DNA of 18,299 nt from an uncultured bacterium (GTDB lineage: Bacteria > Patescibacteriota > Minisyncoccia > CAIUEV01). The position numbers and the translations under genes were made by a program. Of this stretch, positions 3,261-18,299 are shown one piece after another. Location of the stretch: contig CAIUEV010000016.1 in the NCBI GenBank assembly GCA_903898335.1, positions 1 through 18,299 on the forward strand, written 5' to 3'. Each line of letters starts with the position of its first letter. The stretch's first letter is position 1. Below the pieces are notes generated by a model. The model ran no database searches and was not told the DNA's origin. It saw only the letters and a program-made list of their open reading frames with translations.

Positions 3261-4487
3261 TTAGTTGGAAATCCAATTTTTGTTACGGAGTCGCTTGTGA
3301 TAGTCTATAGCAAAACGATGAGCTTCGTTTCTTACTTTCTCTATAGTGGACTCTATTTCTTCTTTGCTTTGAATTACGGTTTGGTTGCGGGTATGAAAAT
3401 CCAGCTTGTTTCGTTTAGGTCCTTTAGATACCGCCAGAAGCGGGATTGGTCTTTTTAGTTTTTTTAGCAACGCTTCTATTTTGTTTAAATGGCCTATGCC
3501 ACCGTCTAAAACAATTAAATCGGGGGTTGGCCACTCTTTATGTTTTAGTCTTCTTGCTAAAACTTCCTTCATCATTCCAAAATCGTCCACTCCTTCAACT
3601 CGTCTAATTTTAAAACGACGGTAACTTTTTACGTCCGGTTTACCATTCAAAAAAACAACCATGCTTCCAACCGAGTACTCACCGTTTAAATTTGAAATAT
3701 CATAACCTTCAATTCGTTGGAAAGTATTTTTTTCATTTGGCCAACTGAATTCATCTTTACTTATAAGGGCTACATCTCGAATATGTTCGAGTGCAAAAAT
3801 TTTATCTCTGATAATACCGGCTTCTTCATATTTTTTTTCTTTCGATAGATTTTGCATCTCCTTCTGCATTTTTTTCACTAACAGTGCTTTTTTCCCCTTC
3901 AAAATCGATTCTATTTGAGATATATTTTTTAAATATTCTTTACGGGATATTTTATTGGCGTAAGGTCCGGGGCAAAGACCGATTTGAAAATCAAGACAGC
4001 CTTTTTCAGTCTGTTCTTTTCTCGAATGAAAAGGAAAAATCTTTCTTATTATTTTCAAGGCCGTTTCCATTTGCCTTTTTGATGTGTATGGACCGTAATT
4101 TGCCATTCCCGGATATTTGCTTAAATCAGTTTGACGAACTATCAAAATTCTTGGAAAATGCTCATTTTTTGTAATTAAAAAATAAGAAAAACTTTTATCA
4201 TCTTTGGCTTTAATATTATATTTTGGCTGATTTTTTTTGATTAAATTTGATTCCAGAATTAGAGCTTCAAGTACCGTCGGTGTCTTTGTAAATTTCAAAT
4301 CGGTGATCTCTAGGACGAGCCTTTCCGTTTTGTTATCGTGAGCTCCTGAAAAGTATGATCTAACCCGATTTTTAAGGGATGTTGCCTTGCCGATATAAAT
4401 CAATTCTTTTTTCTCATCATAAAAAAAATAGACTCCCGGAGCTTCTGGTAAATTTCTTAATTTTTGAGCTAGATTTTTTGTTGGCAT
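3261..4487 (-). CDS. uvrC: UvrC-type excinuclease subunit lacking the helix-hairpin-helix tail
   Basis: Nucleotide excision repair nuclease subunit that cuts the damaged strand on both sides with UvrAB. The 408 residues show the N-terminal GIY-YIG domain (PGVYFFYD 17-24, YIGKA 31-35, Arg41, Glu79), a UVR motif for UvrB contact (KEKKYEEAGIIRDKI, 216-230), and the RNase H-like C-terminal nuclease with Asp263 (GYDISN), Asp328 (LDGG) and His390 (EAHRF). Both active sites look intact. The protein stops right after the RNase H-like domain, while usual UvrC is about 600 residues and ends in a helix-hairpin-helix DNA-binding domain. The cysteine region reads GCLDFQIGLCPGPY (163-176): only Cys164 and Cys172 remain of the four that bind an iron-sulfur cluster in E. 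coli UvrC. The stop is genuine, with no continuing homology seen beyond it. Cho is a poorer match because it lacks the second nuclease domain. Confidence 0.93.
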   Translation of the reverse strand: MPTKNLAQKLRNLPEAPGVYFFYDEKKELIYIGKATSLKNRVRSYFSGAHDNKTERLVLEITDLKFTKTPTVLEALILESNLIKKNQPKYNIKAKDDKSFSYFLITKNEHFPRILIVRQTDLSKYPGMANYGPYTSKRQMETALKIIRKIFPFHSRKEQTEKGCLDFQIGLCPGPYANKISRKEYLKNISQIESILKGKKALLVKKMQKEMQNLSKEKKYEEAGIIRDKIFALEHIRDVALISKDEFSWPNEKNTFQRIEGYDISNLNGEYSVGSMVVFLNGKPDVKSYRRFKIRRVEGVDDFGMMKEVLARRLKHKEWPTPDLIVLDGGIGHLNKIEALLKKLKRPIPLLAVSKGPKRNKLDFHTRNQTVIQSKEEIESTIEKVRNEAHRFAIDYHKRLRNKNWISN

Positions 4488-4522
4488 AATTTCAGTTCAT
4501 CGAGTTTAATTTTTTATAGCTT

Positions 4523-4557
4523 AAAATAAAAAATCCCACGATTTTTTGGATCGTGGG
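4523..4557 (-). terminator. Rho-independent terminator after the unassigned gene at 4565
   Basis: On the minus strand the perfect 8-bp stem CCCACGAT/ATCGTGGG (4535-4542 with 4550-4557, 7-base loop) is followed by ATTTTTTATTTT. It lies 7 bases past the stop of the gene at 4565-5419 and ahead of uvrC, so uvrC probably has its own promoter. Confidence 0.85.
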
Positions 4558-4564
4558 TAATTGT

Positions 4565-5419
4565 TTACTCAACATTTGAATGGCGTCTGGCGTTGTGCCA
4601 AATCATTATAGAGGTTAATTCACCTCGAGGTTTAAAGTAGAGCCTAACAAATTCTCGATCTATTCCCTTACCCAAATCTTTAAGGGCTAACCCTCCTTTT
4701 TTGAGATAATCCATTAAAGATAGAAGACATTTATCGTTAAGGGTTCGAAAATTTTCTCCTCGGGGTGGTTTTTCCCTGAGTTGACGAAAGGTTCCCAGGG
4801 CTAGCATGCGGAATCTGTTTTTTCTTGTTTTCCTTAAGATTTCTTTTATCTTAGCGGCGTCGATGCCGATTCTCCCTAGAGCGGAATCGTAGTCCTCTCT
4901 GGAAAAATTAAGCTCTTCTTCGTTGGAACTTTTTCGGCCAAACTCAAAAATAAAAGAAACTATTTTAGGAACTTGGCGAACGAATTTCTCGTTTTGATAA
5001 TTACTCTCATCTTCTAGCCATAAAAGAAGTTCCTTGGCAAAGCGTGCGTAGAAGCTTTCTCGCAGAAGAGTCTTTATTTGAGAGCATTTAAAAAAGCAAC
5101 TGCCGGGTATTTCAAGACCGTTGCCAAGATAGTTCCAAAGAGATGTTTCTCTAAAAAAAATTTCTGCCGGCTCCTCGCTTTCGGTCTCATTGAAAATATC
5201 TATTTCCAAAGAGAGGAAGAAAAAAGCTGTTTTGTCTTCGCCGGTAGGCTCATTGAATTTAAATTTGAGCTGATGAAATTTTTCAAGTTCGTCTAAATCC
5301 TTTACTAGCTGCATCTTGTCCAGCCTTTCCGAGACGAGATGCGCCCATTTGTTAAAACATTCGTTTTCCGGTACTGTCTTGGTTTTTGTCCTGTTCTTAA
5401 TTTTCTCCAGGATACCCAT
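4565..5419 (-). CDS. Soluble protein of unknown function
   Basis: I do not recognise this 284-residue protein. It is charged, rich in Glu, Lys and Phe, and has no signal peptide or membrane segment, so it should be cytosolic. The N-terminus is lysine-rich (ILEKIKNRTKTKT). A long helical middle (about 100-200) leads to a basic stretch, KTRKNRFRML (about 198-207). The end contains FVRLYFKPRGELTSIMIWHN, with alternating hydrophobic residues suggesting a small beta sheet. No catalytic motif is evident. It has one of the few strong Shine-Dalgarno sites in the window, AAGGAGG at 5429-5435. GTG at 5422 and ATG at 5419 are adjacent; I chose the ATG (9-base spacing), but the GTG (6 bases) is equally possible. 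A promoter-like pair precedes it and a strong terminator follows, so it looks like a single-gene, well-expressed unit. Confidence 0.8.
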   Translation of the reverse strand: MGILEKIKNRTKTKTVPENECFNKWAHLVSERLDKMQLVKDLDELEKFHQLKFKFNEPTGEDKTAFFFLSLEIDIFNETESEEPAEIFFRETSLWNYLGNGLEIPGSCFFKCSQIKTLLRESFYARFAKELLLWLEDESNYQNEKFVRQVPKIVSFIFEFGRKSSNEEELNFSREDYDSALGRIGIDAAKIKEILRKTRKNRFRMLALGTFRQLREKPPRGENFRTLNDKCLLSLMDYLKKGGLALKDLGKGIDREFVRLYFKPRGELTSIMIWHNARRHSNVE

Positions 5420-5428
5420 CACTAGAAA

Positions 5429-5435
5429 CCTCCTT
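5429..5435 (-). promoter_or_regulatory. Strong Shine-Dalgarno site for the gene at 4565-5419
   Basis: The minus strand reads AAGGAGG, 9 bases before ATG 5419 and 6 bases before GTG 5422. Most other genes in the window lack such a site, so this one helps fix the start to one of these two adjacent codons. Confidence 0.8.
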
Positions 5436-5464
5436 TTAAGGTGCTTTTTGTAAAACTGACCAGC

Positions 5465-5494
5465 ATCGTAGAGCTAAACAAATTTTTTGTCCAA
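5465..5494 (-). promoter_or_regulatory. Putative promoter for the gene at 4565-5419
   Basis: On the minus strand, TTGGAC (5489-5494), an 18-base spacer and TACGAT (5465-5470) lie in the 89-base gap after the GH130 gene. The spacer is slightly long and the match was made by eye. Confidence 0.35.
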
Positions 5495-5508
5495 TCAAGA
5501 AATATTTT

Positions 5509-7434
5509 CTATTCTTCGATGGACTTTTTTATCTCTTTGAGAAGTTTACTAACGGTAGTGGTAGCGACGCAAAGCACTTTATCGGCTCCACCGTAGTAAA
5601 CGAAAATTTTATCTTTAACCAGAACATTTCCGCAAGAGAAAACAACATTGTTGACATTGCCGTTTAATTCGTATTCTTCTATTGGCTCCAAAATCGGATT
5701 TTCCGTGCGAGCGATTATCTTTTCCGGATTTTTCAGGTCGGTTAAAATAGCCCCGATTCTGTAATGAGAATCTATATCCGATATTCCGTGATAAAGGATA
5801 ATCCAGCCTTCTTTGGTTTTTATTGGAGGACCGTTGAGACCGACTTTTCGACTATCCCACTTCCCTTTTCTTGGCACTATCCAATTGGTTTCATGATTTA
5901 ATTTCTCTTCTGAGAAATTCAAATCTTTTGAGTACAGAAGATCCATTCCATAATCGTTTAGTCGATGAATAATTAAATATTTACCGCGAAATTTTTCAGG
6001 AAAAGCGCAGGCGTCTTTGTTTGATCGATCGGTGGTGGAAATTAAAAACGGCTCCGACCAATTCCATTTTTTATTCAGAAAATCTTTCACACTTATACTG
6101 CTAAGGGCTACGCGAGGTTTGTCGGCGCCGTTGAAAGCTGTATAGAACATATAAATTTTGTTACCGATTCTAACTAAACGTGGGTCTTCGCAGCCATAAT
6201 ATTGACCGCGATCATTTTTTTCGAAATCTTTACGCGGCAAATAGACGGGTTGCTCTGAGCGATAATCAAAATCGATCCCGTTTTTCGAGGAGGCGTAGCC
6301 GAGAACGGAAACAAAATTGTTTGATTCAGCCCGATAAATCAGATGAAATCTGCCTCCTTCGTAAATTGCGCCGCTGTTGAAAACCGATCTGGCTTCCCAA
6401 GGATTTTCTTCTTTCGGCTCAAGAATCGGATTCTTTTTGTATCTATCCAAAGAAAAGGCGTTCAAATGAGGGCTAAAAATGTTCTCCAATAAATCTTTGA
6501 TTTTAAAGGTAGTAGCGCAGCAAACACTGTCAGCAGCCCCGTAAAACAGGTGAAGCTCTTTCCCTTTGATAAATCCACCGGTCGGGAAAATAATATTCGG
6601 TACTTTCCCGTAAAGTTCATATTCTTTTTCCGGAACCATCAGCGGCGTTTTGCTGTGGCCGAGAATTTTTTGAGGATTTTTAGCGTCCAAAACCAGAGCT
6701 TGAACTTCAAATACTGTTTCCTTGTCCGGATTGTAGTAGTTGCGAATATATGAGTAAATCAGAAGCCACCCCTCTTTAATTTTAATCGGAGGCGCTCCCA
6801 CCTCGAAATGATCTTCCGGATTTCTCGGAATCTCGATAAGATTTTTATCCAATTTTTTATACCAATTATTCCAGAATTTTTTTGACCAAAGATCACTCTC
6901 CTTTTTGAATAGGGCTAGCCCGACTTTGGTAGTTGGCGGTCGGTCGGTGTCTACGGAAAGAACGGCGGCGTATTGGCCCTTAACTTTACCGGGAAACAAA
7001 GCCATAGCCTTGGCATTGAAAGTGGTGACCGGATGTTTCTCCCATTTTTTAAAATCCTTGGTGATGGCTACTCCGACTTTGATGCCCTCCGGTCCGAAAG
7101 GATACTGAGAAAGCGCAGTGTAGCAAACAAAATATTTTGAGCCGATTTTGGTGATTCGCGGATCTTCACAGCCATATTTCTCCCATTCGAACTCGGGTCT
7201 GATAACTTGTTCTCGACTTTTCCAAATTTTTCCATCTCGGCTAATCGCCATACCTACAGAGGAGACGTTTAATTTCGCCTCACCGATTTCTTGCGGAGTA
7301 GAAAGAGCTCTGTAAAAAAGACGGTATTTACCTCCATCTTTTATTGGGCAGCCGTTAAAGGAAGCTTCCAGCTCCCAGCTGTTTGATTCGGTCGGCATTA
7401 AAATCGGGTTGCAAGCGTAGCGTTTGGTGATCAT
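5509..7434 (-). CDS. Tandem GH130 beta-propeller protein (mannoside phosphorylase/hydrolase family), two intact units
   Basis: GH130 enzymes are five-bladed beta-propellers that split beta-mannosides, mostly by phosphorolysis to alpha-mannose 1-phosphate. This 641-residue protein contains two complete units, about 1-320 and 325-635. Each starts with a CNPIL/KNPIL strand, then FN-x-G/C, a YRA motif (41-43, 367-369), and the signature GCEDPR at 88-93 and 414-419. The Asp of that signature (D91, D417) is the family's proposed catalytic acid. Each ends with a YELYGKVPN/YELNGNVNN strand and an FYGAAD/YYGGAD strand. Typical GH130 proteins are single propellers of 300-400 residues. No signal peptide is visible, so it should be cytosolic. 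It lies 34 bases after the related gene at 7469 on the same strand, so the two probably form one operon. Substrate and the phosphorylase-versus-hydrolase choice cannot be read from the sequence. Confidence 0.88.
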   Translation of the reverse strand: MITKRYACNPILMPTESNSWELEASFNGCPIKDGGKYRLFYRALSTPQEIGEAKLNVSSVGMAISRDGKIWKSREQVIRPEFEWEKYGCEDPRITKIGSKYFVCYTALSQYPFGPEGIKVGVAITKDFKKWEKHPVTTFNAKAMALFPGKVKGQYAAVLSVDTDRPPTTKVGLALFKKESDLWSKKFWNNWYKKLDKNLIEIPRNPEDHFEVGAPPIKIKEGWLLIYSYIRNYYNPDKETVFEVQALVLDAKNPQKILGHSKTPLMVPEKEYELYGKVPNIIFPTGGFIKGKELHLFYGAADSVCCATTFKIKDLLENIFSPHLNAFSLDRYKKNPILEPKEENPWEARSVFNSGAIYEGGRFHLIYRAESNNFVSVLGYASSKNGIDFDYRSEQPVYLPRKDFEKNDRGQYYGCEDPRLVRIGNKIYMFYTAFNGADKPRVALSSISVKDFLNKKWNWSEPFLISTTDRSNKDACAFPEKFRGKYLIIHRLNDYGMDLLYSKDLNFSEEKLNHETNWIVPRKGKWDSRKVGLNGPPIKTKEGWIILYHGISDIDSHYRIGAILTDLKNPEKIIARTENPILEPIEEYELNGNVNNVVFSCGNVLVKDKIFVYYGGADKVLCVATTTVSKLLKEIKKSIEE

Positions 7435-7468
7435 TTTTTGTTTTTATTTATCGGAATTAACGTATACT

Positions 7469-9382
7469 TTAAGTTAGCAAAACTCTTTTAAAATGAATAA
7501 TTTTTGGGGTTTGAATCAGGGAGCTTAAAAATTCCTCAACGGGGGCTGAAGCGGCACAGACGAATTTGTCGGCTCCACCGTAGTAAACGAAAATTCTTCC
7601 GTCCTTTATAATACTTCCGCAAACATAAACCACTCCCGATTTAAATCCGTTATTTTCGTAGTGAGCGTCCGGCTCCAATATCGGCTGGTGGCAGCGATGA
7701 ATAATTTTTCTCGGGTCGTTCAAATCCAAGAGCATCGCTCCTACTTTATAGCGATTCGGGTCCCGTTTGTCCATGGCATGATAAAGCACCAGCCAGCCGT
7801 AGTCGGTTTTAATCGGGGGTGCTCCCACTCCTCGAAGAATATTATCCCAACGGCGATCATCTGATTTATTGTTGTGATGACTTTTGATGGTAAAAATATC
7901 TTCCAAAGAATCAAAATAATCGATTGTTACCGAAGGAGAAATACTGTGCAGGATTGCGTATTTACCGTTGAGTTTTTCCGGGAAGATGACCCAATTTTTT
8001 TGAATTTCACCTGCGGGCGAAATGAGCTTTGGCTCTTCCCAGTTCCAGATTTTTTTTATAAAATTTTCTTTTGAAATTGATGTGAGGGCGACTCCCGGTG
8101 GCGCGTAGCCATTGAAGGCGATATACGTCATGAAAACTTTGTCGTCGATGGCAACGATTCTCGGATCTTCGCAGCCGCCCCAACCACTACCGGACTCATA
8201 GGCAAAAGGCTTTTGATTTTTTAGACCCTTTTTTTCGAATTCAAATTTTTTTCGAGGAAAGTAAATCGGACTTTCCGCTCTTTCATCAAAATTTATTCCA
8301 TCTTCACTGGCAGCGTAGCCGAAGGAAGAAATACCGTCTCGACTCATTGCCCGATAAATCAGATGCACTCTACCGTCCAAGTAAACGGCGGCCGGATTGA
8401 AAGTCGCATCCGCTTCCCAGTGATTTTCTTCTCGGGGACTAAGAATCGGATTTTGAATTGATCTCTCGAGTCGAGGTTGAAGTTGCCAAACAAAATCATT
8501 CTTTTTTACTTTGCTATAAATAAGAGATGGTAGTTCCGTTCCGTAGAATATTTCATTTTTGTCTTTGCCGAAGAAAAAATAATGATTTTTGAAAAGGACT
8601 ATTCCCAATGGTTGAAATTGGCCGGCAGTATGCTCCTTCCAGAGAGGAATTTCTGATCGCCAAAGAACTTTTTTGGAATTTTTTTTGTCCAACAAAACCG
8701 CCCCGACTGACAAAAAGTTGTTTCTGTCTTTGGCGTAATAAAAAACCAGATAGCCTTCTTTTCTTTGAAAAACTTCCGCCGGAGAAATTGATTTTTCATC
8801 AAAGAAATTTTCTCTGATCGGCATGACTATTTCAATCTCTGTTGAACTTTTTGTTTTCTTGTCGATTTCTCCGGTTCGGATATTTTTTTTACCATCAAAA
8901 ACGAGAGTCTTGCTCGGATCGGAAAGACTGTCGCAAAATATTGTAGCACCGTTTACCTCATCTGGTGACTTCCCTTTTCGCCATTTCTTTAGGTCTTTTG
9001 ATCGAAGTAATTCTGTTTTTGTTTTGCCTTTTTGATCGGCTTTCGTAAAAGAAAAAATAAACTCTTTATTTGCTTTAGATAGCCGAATATCTCGCCAGCT
9101 GAGTTTCGATTTTTTTAGATCGGATTTTTTGACCAAATTTACTTTTTTGACGCTTCTAGCGTTATCTAAATCTATAATTCTGGTTTCCTGTTTGCCGGGA
9201 GAAAATTTTATTAAATATCTTTTTTCTTGATGGCCAAAAACTTTCAAATTAATAAAATCATCCTTTTTAACCAAGGGGCTGTTTTCTTCTTTTGGCGACA
9301 AGCTTTCTCCATCTCCCAGAACCAGATAATTCTCAAAAAGAAAATCAACCAATTCACGAGAAAATTTTTCAAACGAATTCAT
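7469..9382 (-). CDS. GH130-type protein with a divergent N-terminal propeller and an intact C-terminal propeller
   Basis: This 637-residue paralogue of the next gene has the same two-unit size. The C-terminal unit (about 305-625) has QNPILSPREEN (310-319), YRAMSRDG (343-350), GCEDPR (403-408, with Asp406 as the family's catalytic Asp), GVGAPPIKTDYGWL (518-531) and YYGGAD (600-605). It should therefore be an active GH130 fold. The N-terminal unit (about 1-300) keeps propeller-like strands such as LRSKDLKKWRKG (126-137) and EGYLVFYYAKDRNNFLSVGA (209-228), but has no EDPR signature. It is therefore probably a non-catalytic propeller with a binding or structural role. A 17-residue tail (SLIQTPKIIHFKRVLLT) follows the last blade. 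No signal peptide is seen. It is the first gene of a two-gene unit, with a TATAAT box upstream and a divergent gene at 9515. Duplication of an ancestral tandem protein is the simplest origin. Confidence 0.83.
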   Translation of the reverse strand: MNSFEKFSRELVDFLFENYLVLGDGESLSPKEENSPLVKKDDFINLKVFGHQEKRYLIKFSPGKQETRIIDLDNARSVKKVNLVKKSDLKKSKLSWRDIRLSKANKEFIFSFTKADQKGKTKTELLRSKDLKKWRKGKSPDEVNGATIFCDSLSDPSKTLVFDGKKNIRTGEIDKKTKSSTEIEIVMPIRENFFDEKSISPAEVFQRKEGYLVFYYAKDRNNFLSVGAVLLDKKNSKKVLWRSEIPLWKEHTAGQFQPLGIVLFKNHYFFFGKDKNEIFYGTELPSLIYSKVKKNDFVWQLQPRLERSIQNPILSPREENHWEADATFNPAAVYLDGRVHLIYRAMSRDGISSFGYAASEDGINFDERAESPIYFPRKKFEFEKKGLKNQKPFAYESGSGWGGCEDPRIVAIDDKVFMTYIAFNGYAPPGVALTSISKENFIKKIWNWEEPKLISPAGEIQKNWVIFPEKLNGKYAILHSISPSVTIDYFDSLEDIFTIKSHHNNKSDDRRWDNILRGVGAPPIKTDYGWLVLYHAMDKRDPNRYKVGAMLLDLNDPRKIIHRCHQPILEPDAHYENNGFKSGVVYVCGSIIKDGRIFVYYGGADKFVCAASAPVEEFLSSLIQTPKIIHFKRVLLT

Positions 9383-9419
9383 TGACGAGTTTTTTTGTTT
9401 TGTTTAGATTTCTCTTTAC

Positions 9420-9425
9420 ATTATA
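9420..9425 (-). promoter_or_regulatory. -10 box (TATAAT) for the GH130 operon
   Basis: A consensus TATAAT on the minus strand lies 37 bases ahead of the GH130 ATG at 9382, inside the 132-base divergent intergenic region. The -35 region is a T/C-rich stretch without a good consensus match, so only the -10 box is claimed. Confidence 0.5.
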
Positions 9426-9514
9426 TCCTAAAAATAAAACGGAAGAAAAATTATTTTTATTTCCTTTCGTTTTTAGTTGAGCTAAGATTAAAGAATAAGA
9501 ATTAAATTGACGAA

Positions 9515-10108
9515 ATGACCTCGAAGATTAAAGAGATTTTGGAGAAGATTGAGCAGTTAAACGAATCTCTGAGAAAGGAGCACGCCCGTCTGTCCGAAAA
9601 ATACGGGTTTTTGATTGAGGAAAAAAAGATTACTTTCCTTAAGAAAATCAAAGAAAGAAACAGGAGATTTAAAATTCCGGCTTGGAAATATGCCGTACCC
9701 GTTAATATCAGGCATTTTCTTTCCATTCCCTTTATTTATTCCATGATAATCCCGGCGTTGATTCTTGATTTATTCATTACCGTTTACCATCATGCGGCCT
9801 TTTCGCTTTACAAAATTCCCAAGGTAAAACGAAAAGAATATATTGTTTACGATCGCCAGTTTCTCGATTATCTAAACTGGGTTCAGAAAATTCATTGCGT
9901 ATATTGCACTTATGTGAACGGTCTTTTTGCCTATTCTTTAGAAATTGCAGCTCGCACCGAAAGATATTGGTGTCCGATCAAAGCGGCCAGAAAACCGAAA
10001 TTTAGTCACGGTTGGTACAAAGATTTTGCCGACTACGGTGATCCGGAGGAATGGGACAAAAAATTCAACGATCATGATCAGAAGGCTTTCAAGAAGGCGA
10101 AGAAATAA
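9515..10108 (+). CDS. Small membrane-associated protein with a conserved-looking Cys/Arg motif, function unknown
   Basis: I cannot assign this 197-residue protein. It has a charged helical N-terminus, probably a coiled coil (about 2-50, MTSKIKEILEKIEQLNESLR and on). A hydrophobic segment follows (about 67-96, SIPFIYSMIIPALILDLFIT), then a cytosolic-looking domain with HCVYCTYVNG (127-136), EIAARTERYWCPIK (143-156) and a C-terminal acidic/aromatic region, GWYKDFADYGDPEEWDKKF (166-184). The Cys128-x2-Cys131 pair plus Cys153, with His92, His93 and His127, could bind a metal or form a redox site; that is inference. The density of Trp, Tyr, Cys and Arg in the motif region suggests strong conservation. 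It is the only plus-strand gene in the first 13 kb, divergent from the GH130 operon and closed by a strong terminator. ATG 9515 has no ribosome site. Confidence 0.82.
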   Translation: MTSKIKEILEKIEQLNESLRKEHARLSEKYGFLIEEKKITFLKKIKERNRRFKIPAWKYAVPVNIRHFLSIPFIYSMIIPALILDLFITVYHHAAFSLYKIPKVKRKEYIVYDRQFLDYLNWVQKIHCVYCTYVNGLFAYSLEIAARTERYWCPIKAARKPKFSHGWYKDFADYGDPEEWDKKFNDHDQKAFKKAKK

Positions 10109-13092: not shown

Positions 13093-13105
13093 GAACAAGT
13101 AAGTT

Positions 13106-13177
<72 letters not shown>

Positions 13178-13198
13178 CTGATGAAAATACGACCAGGT

Positions 13199-13223
13199 AA
13201 AGGCTTCAGTAAGCCTTTTTTTT
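13199..13223 (+). terminator. Rho-independent terminator after tRNA-Gln
   Basis: The perfect 8-bp stem AAAGGCTT-CAGT-AAGCCTTT (13199-13218) runs into eight T (13216-13223). It isolates the tRNA transcript from the operon that begins at 13346, which therefore needs its own promoter. Confidence 0.9.
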
Positions 13224-13310
13224 GGTTCTAACTTTGTTTATTTATAAGAATATCTTTGAATAACAATCTTTTAAGGAAAAACTTGATAACTTTATTTTGT
13301 TGAAGGAAGA

Positions 13311-13339
13311 TTGATAAGGTAATTATTGATGTATATTTA
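13311..13339 (+). promoter_or_regulatory. Putative promoter of the kinase/HAD/fusion operon
   Basis: TTGATA (13311-13316), a 17-base spacer and TATTTA (13334-13339) end 6 bases before ATG 13346, so the transcript would start at or next to the start codon. The region is very AT-rich, so chance matches are likely. Confidence 0.35.
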
Positions 13340-13345
13340 TAAAAT

Positions 13346-13969
13346 ATGTCATTTGAAAAATGTAAAAATTCTCAAGAAATAAAACTCAGAGATATTCATT
13401 TGAATTCTAACGAGGGAAAAGAGAGTGCAAAGAAACTGGAGCTACTGTTGGAAAAATATAAAAACAAAAGAGTTTTAGTTCTTGCTGCTCCGAGTGTTGG
13501 AAAAAGCACTATAATGCAGCACATTGAAAAGGGTGTTGATTTAGATGTAGCTTTTGATTATATGCCGGAAGAATTTAAGAGATATGTTTTGCATCATGAA
13601 AGTCCCTTTATGTTTATTGACGGTGATAAGCAAACTCTTAAATATGCTGAGAAAAAGTTTGATTCGAATAATCCCGAGCATCAAGAACATCTCAGAAAGA
13701 CCACAGAATTACTTACAGAATATACGCAGAATAAGGTGAGCATAAAAATCGGGTATCCCGCTTTTGGAGCTATTCTTATTGAATCTGATGTGGTGATATA
13801 TTTAAAAATTTCTGAAGAGGAATTTAAAAAGAGAATGGAATCAAGGAATAACAATACTCATCGGCTTATTCAATCTGAAAGAGCTATATCCATAAAAAAT
13901 ATTCTTGAAGAAGATTTAAAAAAAGTTAAATTAGAAGGCAGGATAGTCGAAGAATTAGAAATTTGTTAG
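13346..13969 (+). CDS. P-loop kinase-like protein, first gene of the nucleotide-enzyme operon
   Basis: This 207-residue protein has a Walker A-type loop AAPSVGKST (47-55). The first Gly of the usual G-x4-GK[ST] is replaced by Ala47, while Gly52, Lys53 and Ser54 are kept. A conserved-looking acidic region follows, with AFDYMP (69-74, Asp71), FIDGDKQ (90-96) and VVIYLKISEEEFKKRMESR (149-167). The strand-turn-helix VIYLKIS-EEEFKKR resembles the part of small-molecule kinases where a hydrophobic strand precedes the lid or adenine-contact helix. The overall size fits nucleoside, nucleotide or small-metabolite kinases, but I cannot name the substrate. The first 40 residues are an unassigned helical segment. 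It lies 28 bases ahead of the HAD gene on the same strand. It has no Shine-Dalgarno site, and its start could be leaderless. Codon use looks more AT-rich than in the region before tRNA-Gln. Confidence 0.75.
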   Translation: MSFEKCKNSQEIKLRDIHLNSNEGKESAKKLELLLEKYKNKRVLVLAAPSVGKSTIMQHIEKGVDLDVAFDYMPEEFKRYVLHHESPFMFIDGDKQTLKYAEKKFDSNNPEHQEHLRKTTELLTEYTQNKVSIKIGYPAFGAILIESDVVIYLKISEEEFKKRMESRNNNTHRLIQSERAISIKNILEEDLKKVKLEGRIVEELEIC

Positions 13970-13997
13970 TTTTATTAATAAAATAGAGGCTATGAAA

Positions 13998-14534
13998 ATG
14001 AAGAAAAAAATAATTTTTTTAGATGGAGACGGTACGCTTTGGTATCCAAGAACTACAAAGAGATCACAGAAGCCTCATTGGGTTTATCATGATCCAGAAA
14101 CCAAGGATAATTATCTAGAGCATTTAGAGTTGACTCCACATACAAAGGAAGCTCTGGAATACTTGAGTGGGAAAGGTATTTATCTAGTAGTTCTTTCGGC
14201 TAATCCTTATGCGGAAGATGTTGCTATCAAGGAAATAAAAGAAAGACTTGAGCATTTTGGATTAGCAAGTCTTTTCTATACATATCGATCTTCAGAAGGA
14301 AGTGATCCAAACGGTAAATCTTCAATTATCTTGGAAGTTCTCAATACTTTGGGGCTTAATAAAAAAGACGCTCTCATGGTCGGGGATAGTTATTTTTATG
14401 ATTATTTGGCGGCTAAAAATATTGGGGTGGATGCTTTTTTTATAGAAAATAACGTTTCGAAAATGCCAAGCCAAACTCCTCATGATTTGAAATCAATAAA
14501 AGAGGTTCATGAGTTGGTTGATATTTTGATTTAG
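13998..14534 (+). CDS. HAD-superfamily phosphatase
   Basis: The four HAD motifs are present (numbering from the upstream ATG at 13992). Motif I is LDGDGTLW, with nucleophile Asp11 and acid/base Asp13. Motif II is the Ser69 of VLSAN, motif III the Lys109 of NGKSS, and motif IV is VGDSYFYDY with Asp132 and Asp137. Motif I and the small inserted region (LWYPRTTKRSQKPHWVYHD) resemble the short MDP-1-like or histidinol-phosphatase-like phosphatases, with a small cap. The product should be a magnesium-dependent phosphatase of a small phosphorylated metabolite; the substrate is unknown. GAGG at 13986-13989 stands 8 bases from ATG 13998 but only 2 from ATG 13992, so I prefer 13998 (178 residues). It ends 9 bases before the large fusion gene and begins 28 bases after the kinase-like gene, so the three are almost certainly one operon. 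Confidence 0.87.
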   Translation: MKKKIIFLDGDGTLWYPRTTKRSQKPHWVYHDPETKDNYLEHLELTPHTKEALEYLSGKGIYLVVLSANPYAEDVAIKEIKERLEHFGLASLFYTYRSSEGSDPNGKSSIILEVLNTLGLNKKDALMVGDSYFYDYLAAKNIGVDAFFIENNVSKMPSQTPHDLKSIKEVHELVDILI

Positions 14535-14543
14535 CAATAAATT

Positions 14544-17500
14544 ATGAAGAATAAAAGCTTAAAAACAAAAATTTATAAGTTTAATAAAGAAGGTGGCATT
14601 GATATTCTTATCGATTTGTTGAGTAACTATAGCTTAAAAGATGTCGTATGCTTTATTAATAAGAACGCTAATAATCAGCAGCTAAAATTGTTAGTATTCC
14701 AGCCACTTAAAATTAATAAAAAATATCTTGTATTTATAAATTCATCCGCAAAAGTTGAAGTTGCTGGTTCTGACATCGCTAATTTAAAAAAAACTTTGAA
14801 TCGAATTAAGTTGTATGAAAATGATCATCCAAAACAAAAAATTAAAAGTCTAAATTTAAGAAATGTGTTGCTTTCTATTTCCAAATCAAAACTTAAATCG
14901 TATGATGCCTTTACTAATTTTTGTACCGACGGTATAGATAAAATTACTCTAAGAAATTTATTGGGCAATGAAAAAAACTGGATAAGAGAAAGAGTAAAGA
15001 TACAAAATAGATTGATAAGCTATTTTTTTAAAAGTTCTGAGATTTTATCGAAAAGAATATTAAAATCGAAAAAAATAGAAAAAGGCATTTACTGTATTAA
15101 GGGGGCTGCTGCTTCTGGGAAATCATCTTTCATAAAGATTTTTTTGGATCGAAATTTAAAAAATACTACTGGAATTGACGGCGTATTGAATACTGATGCT
15201 GTGAAAAGAAGACTTATTCTAAGTACTAAAAATTTTACGGGCAATGTATTTTCTGGATATGTATTTCACGAAGAAGCATCTGTCATTGGTGAAAAAGTTC
15301 TTAGTCTTGTTAAGAGCTCCAATCTAAGTTATGTAATAGACAAAAGGATGCAAAGCGTATCTGATATAGAGAATCTTCTTATCGATGCAAAAAAAAGAAA
15401 ATTACCAGTTACTATTTTTGATGTAAAAATTGATTTTATAACATCAGCTCTTAGGATCTTAGAAAGAACGGGGACATATCCGAGTGATCCAACGCCTGAC
15501 TTTCGAGCACTTTTTAAAAGCTATAAAAGCATAGAGGAAAGCAGACTCTTATTTTTAGAGAAATCACTTAATTCAAAGTTTGTAAAAAATTACTATACAT
15601 TATTGGCCAATGCTAATGGGTTTCCAGTAATTACATCTATCAAAGAAAATTATAGAGTAAACAAAAAAAATTTAGCACGAGAATTTGAGATTCAATCGAA
15701 AGTAAGTATTGATGATTTAAAAAATGTTGTCCTTTCCGGTAAGGAAAAGCTTCAAGTCGCTTTAGACAAGCATTCAAGAAAAAATTACACTTTACATTTT
15801 TCAAAAAGAGAATATCAAAAAAAGCTTCTAATGAATATTGACAGTACGAGCAGAACTTTTAGTGGAGAAATTAATGTTACGGCGTCCACATGTAAGCCTA
15901 AAATTGTTAATCTATTGTATTCAAAAGAAGATTTGGCTAAGATTACAAAAAAAAATATAATGCAAGCTTTTGACTTTGTATACGAGAACAGGAATTTGAT
16001 TTTATTTTCACCCCAAGTACTTAGAAGCTTTATTTTCCAAGTCGCAAAGACAGTCAATCAAGATATTATTAAAAATGAAAAGTTCATTGTCAGAAGGGGC
16101 AATAACTCACATAAATATTTTTATGTGAGTACAAAAAACGTAAATGGCTTTTATGAATCATTTGTGGAGCAATTTTATAAGAGATTGAATAGTCCTGAAA
16201 CTATCCCGATTGATTTAGCTGCATGGGTTGAGTGGAATATAGATTTCTGTGGACACGTTTTCAGTGATGGCTGCGGAAGAACAGCGAAGGTTCTAAGTTC
16301 ATGGGTGTTGATGAGATTTAATTGTGATTTACCAGACTATCGCAATGGTCAAGATGGTTTTGACACAATTCGAGAATCTTATAGAAAAAGATTCGCTATC
16401 AGGTCTGTAGTAAGGCTCAAAATTCCAAAGAAGACAAGAAAATTTTACGATTTTCTAAAATACTACAAGAGACTTTTTAAAGCTAAAATAAAATACAAAA
16501 TCTTAGCTGCTGGCGGATTAGTTTACAATGCATCGGGGCAATTTTTAATACTTCAAACTAGCAAGGGAAAAGATTCCGGAAAATGGGTTGTTCCTGGTGG
16601 AAAGCTCAACACCAATGAAGCCCCCATGGAAGCTTTTACTCGTGAAGTTTTTGAGGAAACCGGACTCACCGTCGATTATATTAATTTGTTGGGAGTGAGA
16701 GACTACACGGCAAGAAGCGGCAATCATTATGAATTATATGACTACACTTCCTTTGTCAAAGATGATAAAAAGATAAAGATTAATAATGAATCCCTAGGGT
16801 TCAAATGGATAACAAAAGATCAGATACCTAATTTTATATTTACAGATTCGATAATGAATTTTATGAACAAATATTTTATATTTGGACATAAGGAAATTTA
16901 TAAGAAGGTTGTGAAGATTTCAAACAAGCATTTTGATGTACCGTTTTTTACTGATCATACAATGACAAATTCACTTGAAAAGTATATCGAATCAAAATTA
17001 CCGGTAGAATCGATACGGGGCATAATAGAGGACATGGAAAAGCTAGAGGTTCATGGAATTTATCCTGATTTAAATATACTTAACGATTTAGACCTTGGTT
17101 TTAATATAATTGAGGTTATTTATTTAAGTAAACAGAAGGACGATAATAGTAATAGTTTAAGGCCGTTATTCTTAATAGCTGAAAGAGCCTCAAAAAAGCT
17201 GATTGTTTGCTGCGTAACGCCAGGAAGAGATTTGCTTATTCATTATGCCTCGATGATCAAATACTGCCTGAGAGATACTCAAATTAAGATCGATGCATAT
17301 GCCTATCCGCTTGCTGAAAAAAGAATTGACAAGTGGACGGGGTTGGATGAGAAAATAATTAAGGAAAACGACTTGGTAATCCTTGGTTACAGTACTTTTT
17401 TTAAAGTTCGTTTCGAAAAAGATATGGATTTTTCTGTTTTAAGTACTTATCAAAATAAATTTTATACAGCTACAAGATTTATTACTAAAAATGGAAAGGT

Positions 17501-18065
17501 AGTAAATTGTTTAGAAGCTAATTATGGCCATTGGGGAAACATCAGTGATTTTTTAGCACATAAAATATGTCAGCTAAAAGCAATTGAAATATTACATATT
17601 GGGAAAGTAGGTACTCTAAAATCTCCAAATGAAATATATCGAAGAATATACATACCAGATTCCTTTATTGTCGCTAGAGGAGAAAAGATTATGAATTCAA
17701 GCTCAAAGATAAAAAATTCTATGGAATATATAAAAGAACACTCTTCCTTAACTCACGCTTCGGTTTCAACTACAATGGAGGAAACTTTTAGTCAGCGCGA
17801 AGCTTTATCTAAGCGGAAAATTGAAACGATAGACATCGAATCTTCAAAAATTGCTCAGGCTATTGCTCTGTATAATTTTACTAACAAGACCAAGATAAAA
17901 TTTGGGGCAATACACTTTTCATCAGATTATCTGAAGAAGTTCAGAGAATCCGATAAAAATTTCGAGGTGAATTTGTCAACTGACAGAATTGATTTGAAGT
18001 ACTATAAACAGAGGATACTGAATGAAATTTATTATATTACAAAAAAGCATATTTTGGATAAATAG
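14544..18065 (+). CDS. Giant fusion: zeta-like P-loop kinase + Fic + Nudix + nucleoside-phosphorylase-like domain
   Basis: A 1173-residue intact frame with four recognisable enzyme units. Residues 1-175 form an unassigned N-terminal region. Residues 180-365 are a P-loop kinase with Walker A GAAASGKSS (187-195), NTDAVKRRL (216-224) and YVIDKRMQSVSDIENLL (263-279), like zeta-toxin or AAA_33 kinases. Residues about 450-635 are a Fic domain with HVFSDGCGRTAK (571-582): catalytic His571 and the Gly-Arg part are kept, while the usual Asn is Cys577 and the final Arg is Lys582. Residues 648-775 are a Nudix domain with a perfect box from Gly686 to Leu708 (E692, R700-E701, E704-E705). Residues about 830-1170 resemble the nucleoside phosphorylase superfamily: HIGKVGTL (1018-1025), HASVSTTMEET (1071-1081), IDIES (1096-1100). 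No signal peptide or membrane segment is seen. ATG 14544 has no ribosome site but is 9 bases from the HAD stop. Confidence 0.85.
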   Translation: MKNKSLKTKIYKFNKEGGIDILIDLLSNYSLKDVVCFINKNANNQQLKLLVFQPLKINKKYLVFINSSAKVEVAGSDIANLKKTLNRIKLYENDHPKQKIKSLNLRNVLLSISKSKLKSYDAFTNFCTDGIDKITLRNLLGNEKNWIRERVKIQNRLISYFFKSSEILSKRILKSKKIEKGIYCIKGAAASGKSSFIKIFLDRNLKNTTGIDGVLNTDAVKRRLILSTKNFTGNVFSGYVFHEEASVIGEKVLSLVKSSNLSYVIDKRMQSVSDIENLLIDAKKRKLPVTIFDVKIDFITSALRILERTGTYPSDPTPDFRALFKSYKSIEESRLLFLEKSLNSKFVKNYYTLLANANGFPVITSIKENYRVNKKNLAREFEIQSKVSIDDLKNVVLSGKEKLQVALDKHSRKNYTLHFSKREYQKKLLMNIDSTSRTFSGEINVTASTCKPKIVNLLYSKEDLAKITKKNIMQAFDFVYENRNLILFSPQVLRSFIFQVAKTVNQDIIKNEKFIVRRGNNSHKYFYVSTKNVNGFYESFVEQFYKRLNSPETIPIDLAAWVEWNIDFCGHVFSDGCGRTAKVLSSWVLMRFNCDLPDYRNGQDGFDTIRESYRKRFAIRSVVRLKIPKKTRKFYDFLKYYKRLFKAKIKYKILAAGGLVYNASGQFLILQTSKGKDSGKWVVPGGKLNTNEAPMEAFTREVFEETGLTVDYINLLGVRDYTARSGNHYELYDYTSFVKDDKKIKINNESLGFKWITKDQIPNFIFTDSIMNFMNKYFIFGHKEIYKKVVKISNKHFDVPFFTDHTMTNSLEKYIESKLPVESIRGIIEDMEKLEVHGIYPDLNILNDLDLGFNIIEVIYLSKQKDDNSNSLRPLFLIAERASKKLIVCCVTPGRDLLIHYASMIKYCLRDTQIKIDAYAYPLAEKRIDKWTGLDEKIIKENDLVILGYSTFFKVRFEKDMDFSVLSTYQNKFYTATRFITKNGKVVNCLEANYGHWGNISDFLAHKICQLKAIEILHIGKVGTLKSPNEIYRRIYIPDSFIVARGEKIMNSSSKIKNSMEYIKEHSSLTHASVSTTMEETFSQREALSKRKIETIDIESSKIAQAIALYNFTNKTKIKFGAIHFSSDYLKKFRESDKNFEVNLSTDRIDLKYYKQRILNEIYYITKKHILDK

Positions 18066-18168
18066 TTTTTTTTAGAGAAAATTTATTCATTCTCATCTAG
18101 TATTCCTCTATGGGCAATTCGCTATAAACCAAATCTGACGCTGTATAGTAAATTAGAATAAATATTTC

Positions 18169-18282
18169 TTAACTATTCCCTTCTGGAGCCAAATCCGGGA
18201 TATAAACATCTTCATTTCTCTTCTCAAAAATAGTTCTAATTGAGTCCACTACTGACAGCAGATTGAAATAAGTTACAGTTTT
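18169..18282 (-). pseudogene. Possible C-terminal remnant of a minus-strand gene
   Basis: Read on the minus strand, 37 codons are open before a TAA at 18169-18171 and encode TVTYFNLLSVVDSIRTIFEK and then RNEDVYIPDLAPEGNS. This looks like protein rather than noise. The frame is closed upstream by TAG at 18283-18285, but another frame gives IKEEFRK just before it, as if a single-base shift had split the gene. No ATG start exists inside it. It could be a decayed gene, an assembly error near a sequence end, or chance. The rest of the 234 bases after the fusion gene shows nothing else that I can support: a T run follows the fusion stop, but no strong hairpin. Confidence 0.25.
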
Positions 18283-18299
18283 CTAAACTCTTCCTTTAT

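Follow-up and report, generated by a model that had tools for sequence, protein, structure and literature searches.

The cassette and its fusion gene

The window, a stretch of 18,299 nucleotides from an uncultured bacterium of the Patescibacteriota (Minisyncoccia), holds a three-gene cassette encoding a P-loop kinase, a HAD phosphatase and a fusion protein, the fusion being the third gene of an AT-rich operon. An earlier sequence-only reading had described the fusion, and its description was borne out; it had overlooked that three genes form a cassette and that this cassette shows signs of mobility. From the N-terminus, the fusion consists of an N-terminal domain, an AvrRxo1-type kinase, a Fic fold, a Nudix domain and a nucleosidase unit. 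The features are as follows (residues refer to the fusion protein).

13106..13178, + strand: tRNA-Gln(ttg), 167 bp ahead of the cassette
13199..13218, +: terminator-like hairpin between tRNA and cassette; such sites are no commoner than in shuffled sequence
13346..13969, +: P-loop kinase-like protein, 207 aa, first of the three cassette genes
13992..14534, +: HAD phosphatase, 180 aa, separated by 9 bp from the fusion gene that follows it
14544..18065, +: fusion gene, 1173 aa (open reading frame; near-full-length matches in homologues)
14544..14873, +: N-terminal domain, residues 1-110 (model pLDDT 78-96 in blocks of ten)
14874..15728, +: AvrRxo1-type kinase domain, residues 111-395 (fold and sequence matches)
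15102..15125, +: Walker A, residues 187-194 (homologue alignment)
15192..15197, +: T217-D218, present in 37/37 homologues
15741..16472, +: Fic-fold domain, residues 400-643 (fold matches; free-standing relatives L015 and L016)
15846..15896, +: conserved loop before the Fic core, residues 435-451 (homologue alignment)
16254..16289, +: Fic motif HVFSDGCGRTAK, residues 571-582 (homologue alignment)
16494..16853, +: Nudix domain, residues 651-770 (Pfam and sequence matches)
16599..16667, +: Nudix box, residues 686-708 (homologue alignment)
16896..18062, +: nucleosidase/phosphorylase unit, residues 785-1173 (encoded on its own in some relatives)
17319..18062, +: nucleoside-phosphorylase fold, residues 926-1173 (fold matches)
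17826..17846, +: TIDIESS, residues 1095-1101; E1099 in 32/32 rows with a letter
17913..17930, +: HFSSDY, residues 1124-1129; D1128 in 32/32 rows with a letter

The search for homologues with the same domain order, as had been proposed earlier, yielded 37 homologous proteins, on which the conservation counts are based (32 rows with a letter for the nucleosidase motif columns). At least 95% of the fusion length was matched by 31 of the 37, which rules out an assembly artefact joining separate genes. The architecture claimed from the letters, with kinase, Fic, Nudix and phosphorylase-like domains in one chain, was upheld by fold and sequence: four nucleotide-acting enzyme folds are present, and key residues are conserved in each. 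The regions 450-635 and 830-1170, on whose folding as Fic and phosphorylase that claim had been staked, were both supported by fold matches, in the second region from about residue 926 onwards. The fold-alignment lists cover mainly residues 176-643 and 927-1173, and the model leaves out residues 644-815. This architecture was not found in the literature searched, a search that most subscription journals lay outside. Few proteins are known in which a single conserved chain combines four different catalytic domains that act on nucleotides.

The five domains

The N-terminal domain is the least conserved part, with 2 of its 109 columns at least 95% conserved as against 12-29% of columns elsewhere. 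Against a viral fold library, residues 1-643 gave named matches that were mostly zeta-like, kinase or AAA, with low TM-scores in most.

The second domain had been called a Zeta-like kinase; the kinase assignment stood, and the label was narrowed to AvrRxo1-type. As had been noted, Walker A is complete, and it is conserved across homologues, with G187, G192 and K193 in 37/37 and Ser or Thr at residue 194. D218 lies 24 residues past the Walker A Ser, as compared with 26 past the Thr for the AvrRxo1 aspartate (PMC5491322), and by this spacing it is likely the equivalent of the AvrRxo1 catalytic aspartate, so that Walker A and a candidate catalytic Asp are both present in an AvrRxo1 fold. With 91.2 bits for NCBIfam NF041405 against a curated cut-off of 300, the fusion kinase is, judged by its sequence, a distant relative of the AvrRxo1/XopAJ family that lies below the member threshold. 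AvrRxo1 phosphorylates the adenosine 3'-OH of NAD (NAD 3'-kinase) and is a secreted effector paired with a small inhibitor protein, according to one report (PMC5087710), and its expression suppresses growth of E. coli, as stated in another (PMC5491322). Here, by contrast, the kinase is the second of five domains in a fusion. No AvrRxo1-like small inhibitor gene was recognized beside the fusion, whose neighbours are the HAD and P-loop proteins, and the inhibitor partner was absent from the PDB sequence matches of these two, a weak test.

Fold comparison placed the third domain in the Fic/DOC fold. The canonical Fic motif is HxFx[DE]GN[GK]R. In HVFSDGCGRTAK the H, F, D, first G, C and R are found in 37/37 homologues, the motif Asn being replaced by Cys throughout, and the PF02661 score of 13.2 bits falls below the cut-off of 24 (9/37 homologues matched at E <= 1; best E 0.034). 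The domain thus differs from Fic/Fido proteins such as BT_2513 and FICD, whose canonical motif has the Asn; Cys also occurs in the free-standing relatives L015 and L016, the former without relatives on the plasmids searched. A further difference is the additional loop 435-451, of which T435, R437, G441, S448 and K451 are present in 37/37. The inhibitory motif [ST]xxxE[GN] occurred in at most 4/37 rows at any one place and in neither upstream protein, and canonical Fic regulation was therefore dropped. A DUF2278 match at 400-527 (E 0.036) was seen in 1/37 rows and judged to be chance.

The Nudix domain scored 60.7 bits with PF00293 (cut-off 21.1), and its box agrees with GX5EX7REUXEEXGU, confirming the completeness reported before; E704 and E705 are each conserved in 36/37 and the last Gly in 32/37. 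The complete box and a Pfam score well above cut-off are shared with MutT-type Nudix hydrolases, from which it differs in being embedded in a fusion; the MutT-like Nudix match itself falls below that model's cut-off.

The last unit has the fold of the PNP/UDP phosphorylase superfamily, yet it matched no Pfam family up to E 5, and its profile matched no PDB sequence up to E 10. Comparison by eye with DeoD, Mtn and Amn suggests that E1099 is likely the ribose-binding Glu and D1128 likely the catalytic Asp. Its IDxES..IA motif resembles, again by eye, that of E. coli Amn, and AMP-nucleosidase structures were present among the Foldseek matches. Relative to the superfamily (PNP, MTA/SAH nucleosidase, AMP nucleosidase, HpnG), the unit adds a conserved front part of ~140 residues bearing HTM and TPGRDLLxHY motifs.

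Split forms, partners and mobility

In two homologues (P0036, P0037) the match ends at query residue 778, just past Nudix, and in three others (P0040, P0042, P0047) it starts at residues 783-785; P0036 and P0040 come from one source contig each, equal in listed size, which makes them candidates for a neighbouring pair. Two Klebsiella plasmids carry PNP-like, DMT transporter, Nudix and DegT aminotransferase genes; the four-gene stretch had no megablast match in E. coli genomes, and phage records held no match to the Klebsiella nucleosidase unit. One relative, from Klebsiella oxytoca, is labelled 'RHS repeat'; no link to RHS was drawn from this, as the match spans just a part of the nucleosidase unit and is located after an IS102 transposase gene. 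On a Streptomyces plasmid a nucleosidase homologue, related to the unit at 5.3e-20 in one global profile comparison, adjoins FolE-, QueD-, QueE- and dTMP-kinase-like genes, with a Nudix gene ~3 kb off. In this homologue the SSDY motif is without its Asp, and its chemistry may therefore differ. The Streptomyces gene at L039 6985-7806 had by eye seemed TGT-like, an idea abandoned when no NCBIfam or Pfam match to the gene was obtained.

Three homologues (P0032-P0034) carry an N-terminally fused HAD that is 63-67% identical to the upstream HAD product. The best similarities of the latter, all sub-cut-off, were to HAD-IIIA (7.5e-10) and then to the YjjG noncanonical nucleotidase (7.7e-9). Every Pfam and NCBIfam match of the P-loop protein lay below cut-off. 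Relatives of its gene on plasmids were not found at E 0.01, and no relationship to the Streptomyces P-loop kinase was detectable. Its match to VakA in PADLOC, which we take to be viperin-associated kinase, was discarded as generic, since the Streptomyces dTMP-kinase-like protein gets it too.

The same cassette occurs in different surroundings in a Moraniibacteriota genome (locus L034), where it is bracketed by a 19-bp direct repeat with only two copies in that genome, and a tRNA gene precedes the cassette in both loci. Its occurrence is sporadic (2/383 class genomes; 1/379 phylum genomes). A GC contrast is clear in L034 (cassette genes 32.5-36.6% GC and 27.8-32.8% GC3 versus 46.3-54.9% and 43.1-56.2% in five other genes) and smaller in the window (31.1-34.8% and 26.4-28.2% versus 34.4-43.0% and 28.9-45.5% in eight other genes). 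The cassette thus appears to be mobile between genomes, with marks of horizontal transfer. No repeats of at least 9 bp were found between the tRNA-Gln region (13100-13345) and 18060-18299 of the window, where the contig ends.

The window's UvrC-like gene comes close to the cassette in AT-richness (GC3 28.9%), and neither stretch is short of tRNA genes (four in L034, two in the window). Both observations count against mobility, as do the L034 repeat, which does not overlap the tRNA, and the lack of an integrase gene within the cassette. A phage origin was rejected: profile scans with alignments A1 or A4 found no relative in viral contigs, and phage records gave one match to the fusion, to Nudix only.

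Possible roles of the cassette

Of the two roles offered earlier, a multi-step nucleotide enzyme was judged the better fit, with a conflict effector remaining as its rival. Tentatively, then, and at somewhat less than even confidence, we favour a mobile multi-step nucleotide-processing enzyme over a single-hit toxin, the cassette making or unmaking a nucleotide-derived small molecule. The AvrRxo1-type kinase would add phosphate to a nucleotide, at the adenosine 3'-OH of NAD in the characterized relative; transfer of a nucleotide or of a related phosphate group would fall to the Fic domain; Nudix would release an NMP by cleaving a nucleoside diphosphate linkage; the adjoining nucleosidase would cut the N-glycosidic bond of this product; and the HAD and small kinase would remove or add phosphate on intermediates. 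The molecule would be useful only at times, which would account for a mobile cassette. This reading is favoured because key residues are kept in four domains, HAD is fused in some homologues and the nucleosidase is separate in others. A fused-or-split pattern is typical of pathway enzymes, and these forms were counted accordingly, as was the recurrence of the nucleosidase unit near Nudix on the Klebsiella and Streptomyces plasmids.

Nucleoside antibiotic clusters offer a parallel: in tubercidin biosynthesis a tailoring step is performed by a Nudix enzyme (PMC6112128), and the surroundings of the Streptomyces relative hold 7-deazaguanine-type and nucleotide-kinase-like genes. Such clusters, however, are multi-gene, whereas by eye no base- or sugar-making genes were recognized beside the fusion in the window and the L034 ORF lists, and that no biosynthetic neighbours were recognized in the window counts against a pathway. 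Weighed on the same side were the missing Asp of the Streptomyces homologue and the lack of any detectable kinship between the window and Streptomyces P-loop kinases. So was the variable N-terminal domain, since variation of this sort would be expected of a domain that senses a changing trigger. Toxins are also known among such kinases and among Fic domains, a record that counts likewise.

These last points lead to the conflict effector, which we consider possible though rather doubtful. Here the N-terminal domain would sense a trigger, for example phage, whereupon nucleotides or NAD would be phosphorylated, NMP-transferred and degraded until growth stops, the HAD and P-loop proteins restraining the effector or reversing its products. 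The transfer marks, the position after tRNA genes in both loci, the sporadic occurrence, the fast-evolving N-terminal domain and the growth suppression by AvrRxo1 are all in keeping with it. Yet conservation of key residues covers all four domains and not one, the supposed toxin carries the fused HAD in three homologues, viral contigs lack relatives in the scans above, and PADLOC 2.0.0 gave only generic or weak matches, to Nudix (PDC-S07), the P-loop protein (VakA and others) and HAD. The sole PDB match of the P-loop protein, a weak one to PH0226 (E 0.0014), is not named as an antitoxin, itself a weak test.

Salvage and sanitation, by which a reduced-genome scavenger would break down NAD or damaged nucleotides to yield base and ribose phosphate, is improbable. 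The MutT-like Nudix, the HAD similarities and the Amn-like features of the nucleosidase, each qualified as above, agree with it, but nearly all related genomes sampled do without the cassette, housekeeping would be oddly placed in an accessory cassette, and Fic and kinase are left unexplained. RNA repair or modification, with kinase, phosphatase and Nudix working on RNA ends, is very improbable.

An unlikely but more novel reading is a one-chain mobile pathway for making and breaking a 3'-phosphorylated or NMP-tagged nucleotide, perhaps NAD-derived, as a novel type of nucleotide-based immunity or a chemical weapon in ultra-small bacteria, in which kinase and Fic would write a mark and Nudix and nucleosidase would erase or process it. 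That the domains occur both split and fused hints at a sequence of steps, testable domain by domain. The fusion places an AvrRxo1-type kinase in an enzyme of a small-genome bacterium instead of a secreted effector, and brings to light a Fic subfamily with Cys in its motif, together with a nucleosidase-fold family that has no Pfam match and links small genomes to Klebsiella plasmids and to a Streptomyces plasmid bearing 7-deazaguanine-type genes. If its chemistry were solved, it could reveal bacterial uses of 3'-phosphorylated nucleotides beyond plant disease.

The fusion gene and its active sites

The open reading frame at 14544–18065 is intact and real. A homologue search over a space of ∼5.8 billion proteins scored the 7995 candidates that had the most words in common with the query and yielded 37 proteins at E ≤ 0.001, the fusion itself included. 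As 31 of these 37, again counting our own, covered at least 95% of the query (39–72% identity when our own is set aside), the frame is, on this sequence evidence, a true and conserved gene, and an error joining separate genes, which the sequence-only reading had named as a possible refutation, is ruled out. Every domain of the fusion belongs to a known superfamily. To our knowledge, neither the four-domain combination, nor a Cys-type Fic motif, nor a nucleosidase family lacking a Pfam match was known before, and a literature search on the combination and related ideas, with poor coverage of subscription journals, turned up no paper on the combination.

Active-site residues were counted over the 37 aligned proteins. 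In the kinase domain G187, G192, K193, T217, D218, H242, D266, R268, T300, S301, R304 and R308 were present in all 37. AvrRxo1 needs both a catalytic Asp and the Thr of its Walker A loop (PMC5491322); judged by spacing, D218 probably corresponds to that Asp. The Fic residues H571, F573, D575, G576, C577 and R579 were likewise invariant (37/37). The canonical Fic motif has Asn at the position of C577, whereas Cys replaces it in all 37 proteins as well as in two free-standing relatives (L015 and L016). In the Nudix domain E692, R700 and E701 occurred in 37/37, and E704 and E705 in 36/37, P0031 being the exception. E1099 and D1128 of the nucleosidase unit (residues 785–1173) were found in all 32 rows carrying a letter there, five rows being without this part. 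Profile alignment of the unit to E. coli DeoD, Mtn and Amn failed, and thus the correspondence of E1099 to the ribose-binding Glu and of D1128 to the catalytic Asp, made by eye against these three enzymes, is a reading. The N-terminal domain was far more variable than the remainder: 95% conservation was reached by 2 of its 109 columns, as against 34/285, 50/244, 29/121, 32/141 and 70/245 in the other parts.

Fused, split and free-standing forms

In P0032–P0034 the HAD phosphatase, encoded separately in the window, forms the N-terminus of the fusion (63–67% identity to the window HAD). The matches of P0036 and P0037 end at query residue 778, immediately past the Nudix domain, and those of P0040, P0042 and P0047 start at residues 783–785; P0036 and P0040 each lie on a contig of 946,868 bases, which suggests that they share the same one.

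Fic relatives occur as free-standing genes in two genomes of the phylum (L015 851–2205 and L016 1453–2705, with the DGCGR motif of the fusion). Next to come after each of them is a gene matching an HD-type model, HD_4 in L015 (above cut-off) and HD in L016 (slightly short of cut-off), so that Fic and HD may form a two-gene module. Free-standing kinase relatives were detected in two genomes (G141 and G367). A free-standing AvrRxo1-type kinase gene is located directly past two methyltransferase genes identified by Pfam (L061 8251–10694), and a gene resembling the N-terminal and kinase domains ends early, near a contig end (L044 15779–16663).

The cassette and its distribution

Two genes upstream of the fusion gene complete the cassette, with gaps of 22 bp and then 9 bp.

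Cassette genes upstream of the fusion gene
13346–13969, same strand as the fusion gene, P-loop kinase-like gene
13992–14534, same strand as the fusion gene, HAD phosphatase gene

The three genes recur in the same order, among different neighbours, on a Candidatus Moraniibacteriota contig (L034), which belongs to genome G559, positions agreeing exactly. Its HAD is 82% identical to that of the window, and its kinase-like protein is clearly related (E = 2.1e-88, two-sequence comparison). The L034 cassette genes have a GC content of 32.5–36.6% (third position 27.8–32.8%), and five other genes measured there 46.3–54.9% (43.1–56.2%). The corresponding values in the window are 31.1–34.8% (26.4–28.2%) for the cassette and 34.4–43.0% (28.9–45.5%) for eight other genes, a UvrC-like gene being the low one. 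A tRNA-Gln gene lies 167 bp ahead of the cassette in the window and a tRNA-Ser gene 312 bp ahead in L034; as the stretches carry two and four tRNA genes, respectively, this nearness alone is modest evidence for mobility. In L034 a perfect 19 bp direct repeat (at 6688 and 11760) encloses the cassette without overlapping the tRNA gene ahead of it; with one mismatch allowed, these were the only two copies in that genome, and the control gave zero. No such flanking repeat was found in the window, where the contig ends 234 bp past the fusion gene, and the cassette has no integrase gene. A reverse transcriptase gene (L034 16335–17393; Pfam RVT_1, 5.6e-23) lies ∼5 kb past this second copy of the cassette.

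The C-terminal unit was present in two of 383 genomes of the class sample (our own and G559) and in one of 379 of the phylum sample (our own). The fusion was confined to our own among nine genomes of its order and to G559 among 28 of its family, the remaining matches in both being to the Nudix region. The cassette is therefore accessory and sporadic in the genomes sampled.

Elsewhere in the window, the AT-rich UvrC-like gene (3261–4487; GC3 28.9%) encodes only 408 residues with GIY-YIG, UVR and RNase H parts. A full UvrC normally has a further C-terminal part, which here seems absent. Adjacent genes at 5509–9382 encode long proteins of 641 and 637 residues with two Glyco_hydro_130 matches each. 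A 197-residue protein (9515–10108) gave Pfam matches at chance level only, no PHROG match and no confident family.

The nucleosidase unit on plasmids and the proposed mechanism

On two Klebsiella plasmids the unit heads a row of four genes that looks like a small-molecule operon.

The Klebsiella gene row (in order, PNP-like unit, DMT transporter, Nudix, DegT aminotransferase)
L035, 10067–13553
L037, 8043–11553

Three more plasmids, two of them examined, match the unit in part only. A Streptomyces plasmid encodes a distant relative (tblastn 2e-7 with the Klebsiella protein as query), which matched a unit profile including the Klebsiella proteins at 5.3e-20 over 345 columns in global comparison and at 8.4e-14 in a local HMMER match among three sequences. 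The Asp of SSDY is missing in this relative; its match to the phosphorylase-family model HpnG (3.1e-6, below cut-off) is sequence support for the fold. The genes beside it (L039 ∼4500–9600) are FolE-, QueD-, QueE- and dTMP-kinase-like, and a Nudix gene lies ∼3 kb away on the opposite strand. This stretch is a possible 7-deazaguanine nucleoside pathway. In tubercidin biosynthesis a tailoring step is performed by a Nudix enzyme (PMC6112128).

A serious rival explanation is that the fusion is a conflict effector. The variability of its N-terminal domain speaks for this, and the sporadic occurrence of the cassette, together with its signs of transfer, suits defence or competition. The four conserved active sites, together with a HAD and a nucleosidase that are each either fused or separate, show the pattern expected of a multi-step enzyme. 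In such an enzyme the kinase may phosphorylate the 3'-OH of a nucleotide, since its relative AvrRxo1 converts NAD to 3'-NADP and NAAD to 3'-NAADP (PMC5087710). Of all the steps proposed, that of the Fic domain is the least secure. The most concrete step we infer is the tandem of Nudix and nucleosidase, in which the Nudix domain would produce an NMP as substrate for the adjoining nucleosidase domain, acting like AMP nucleosidase.
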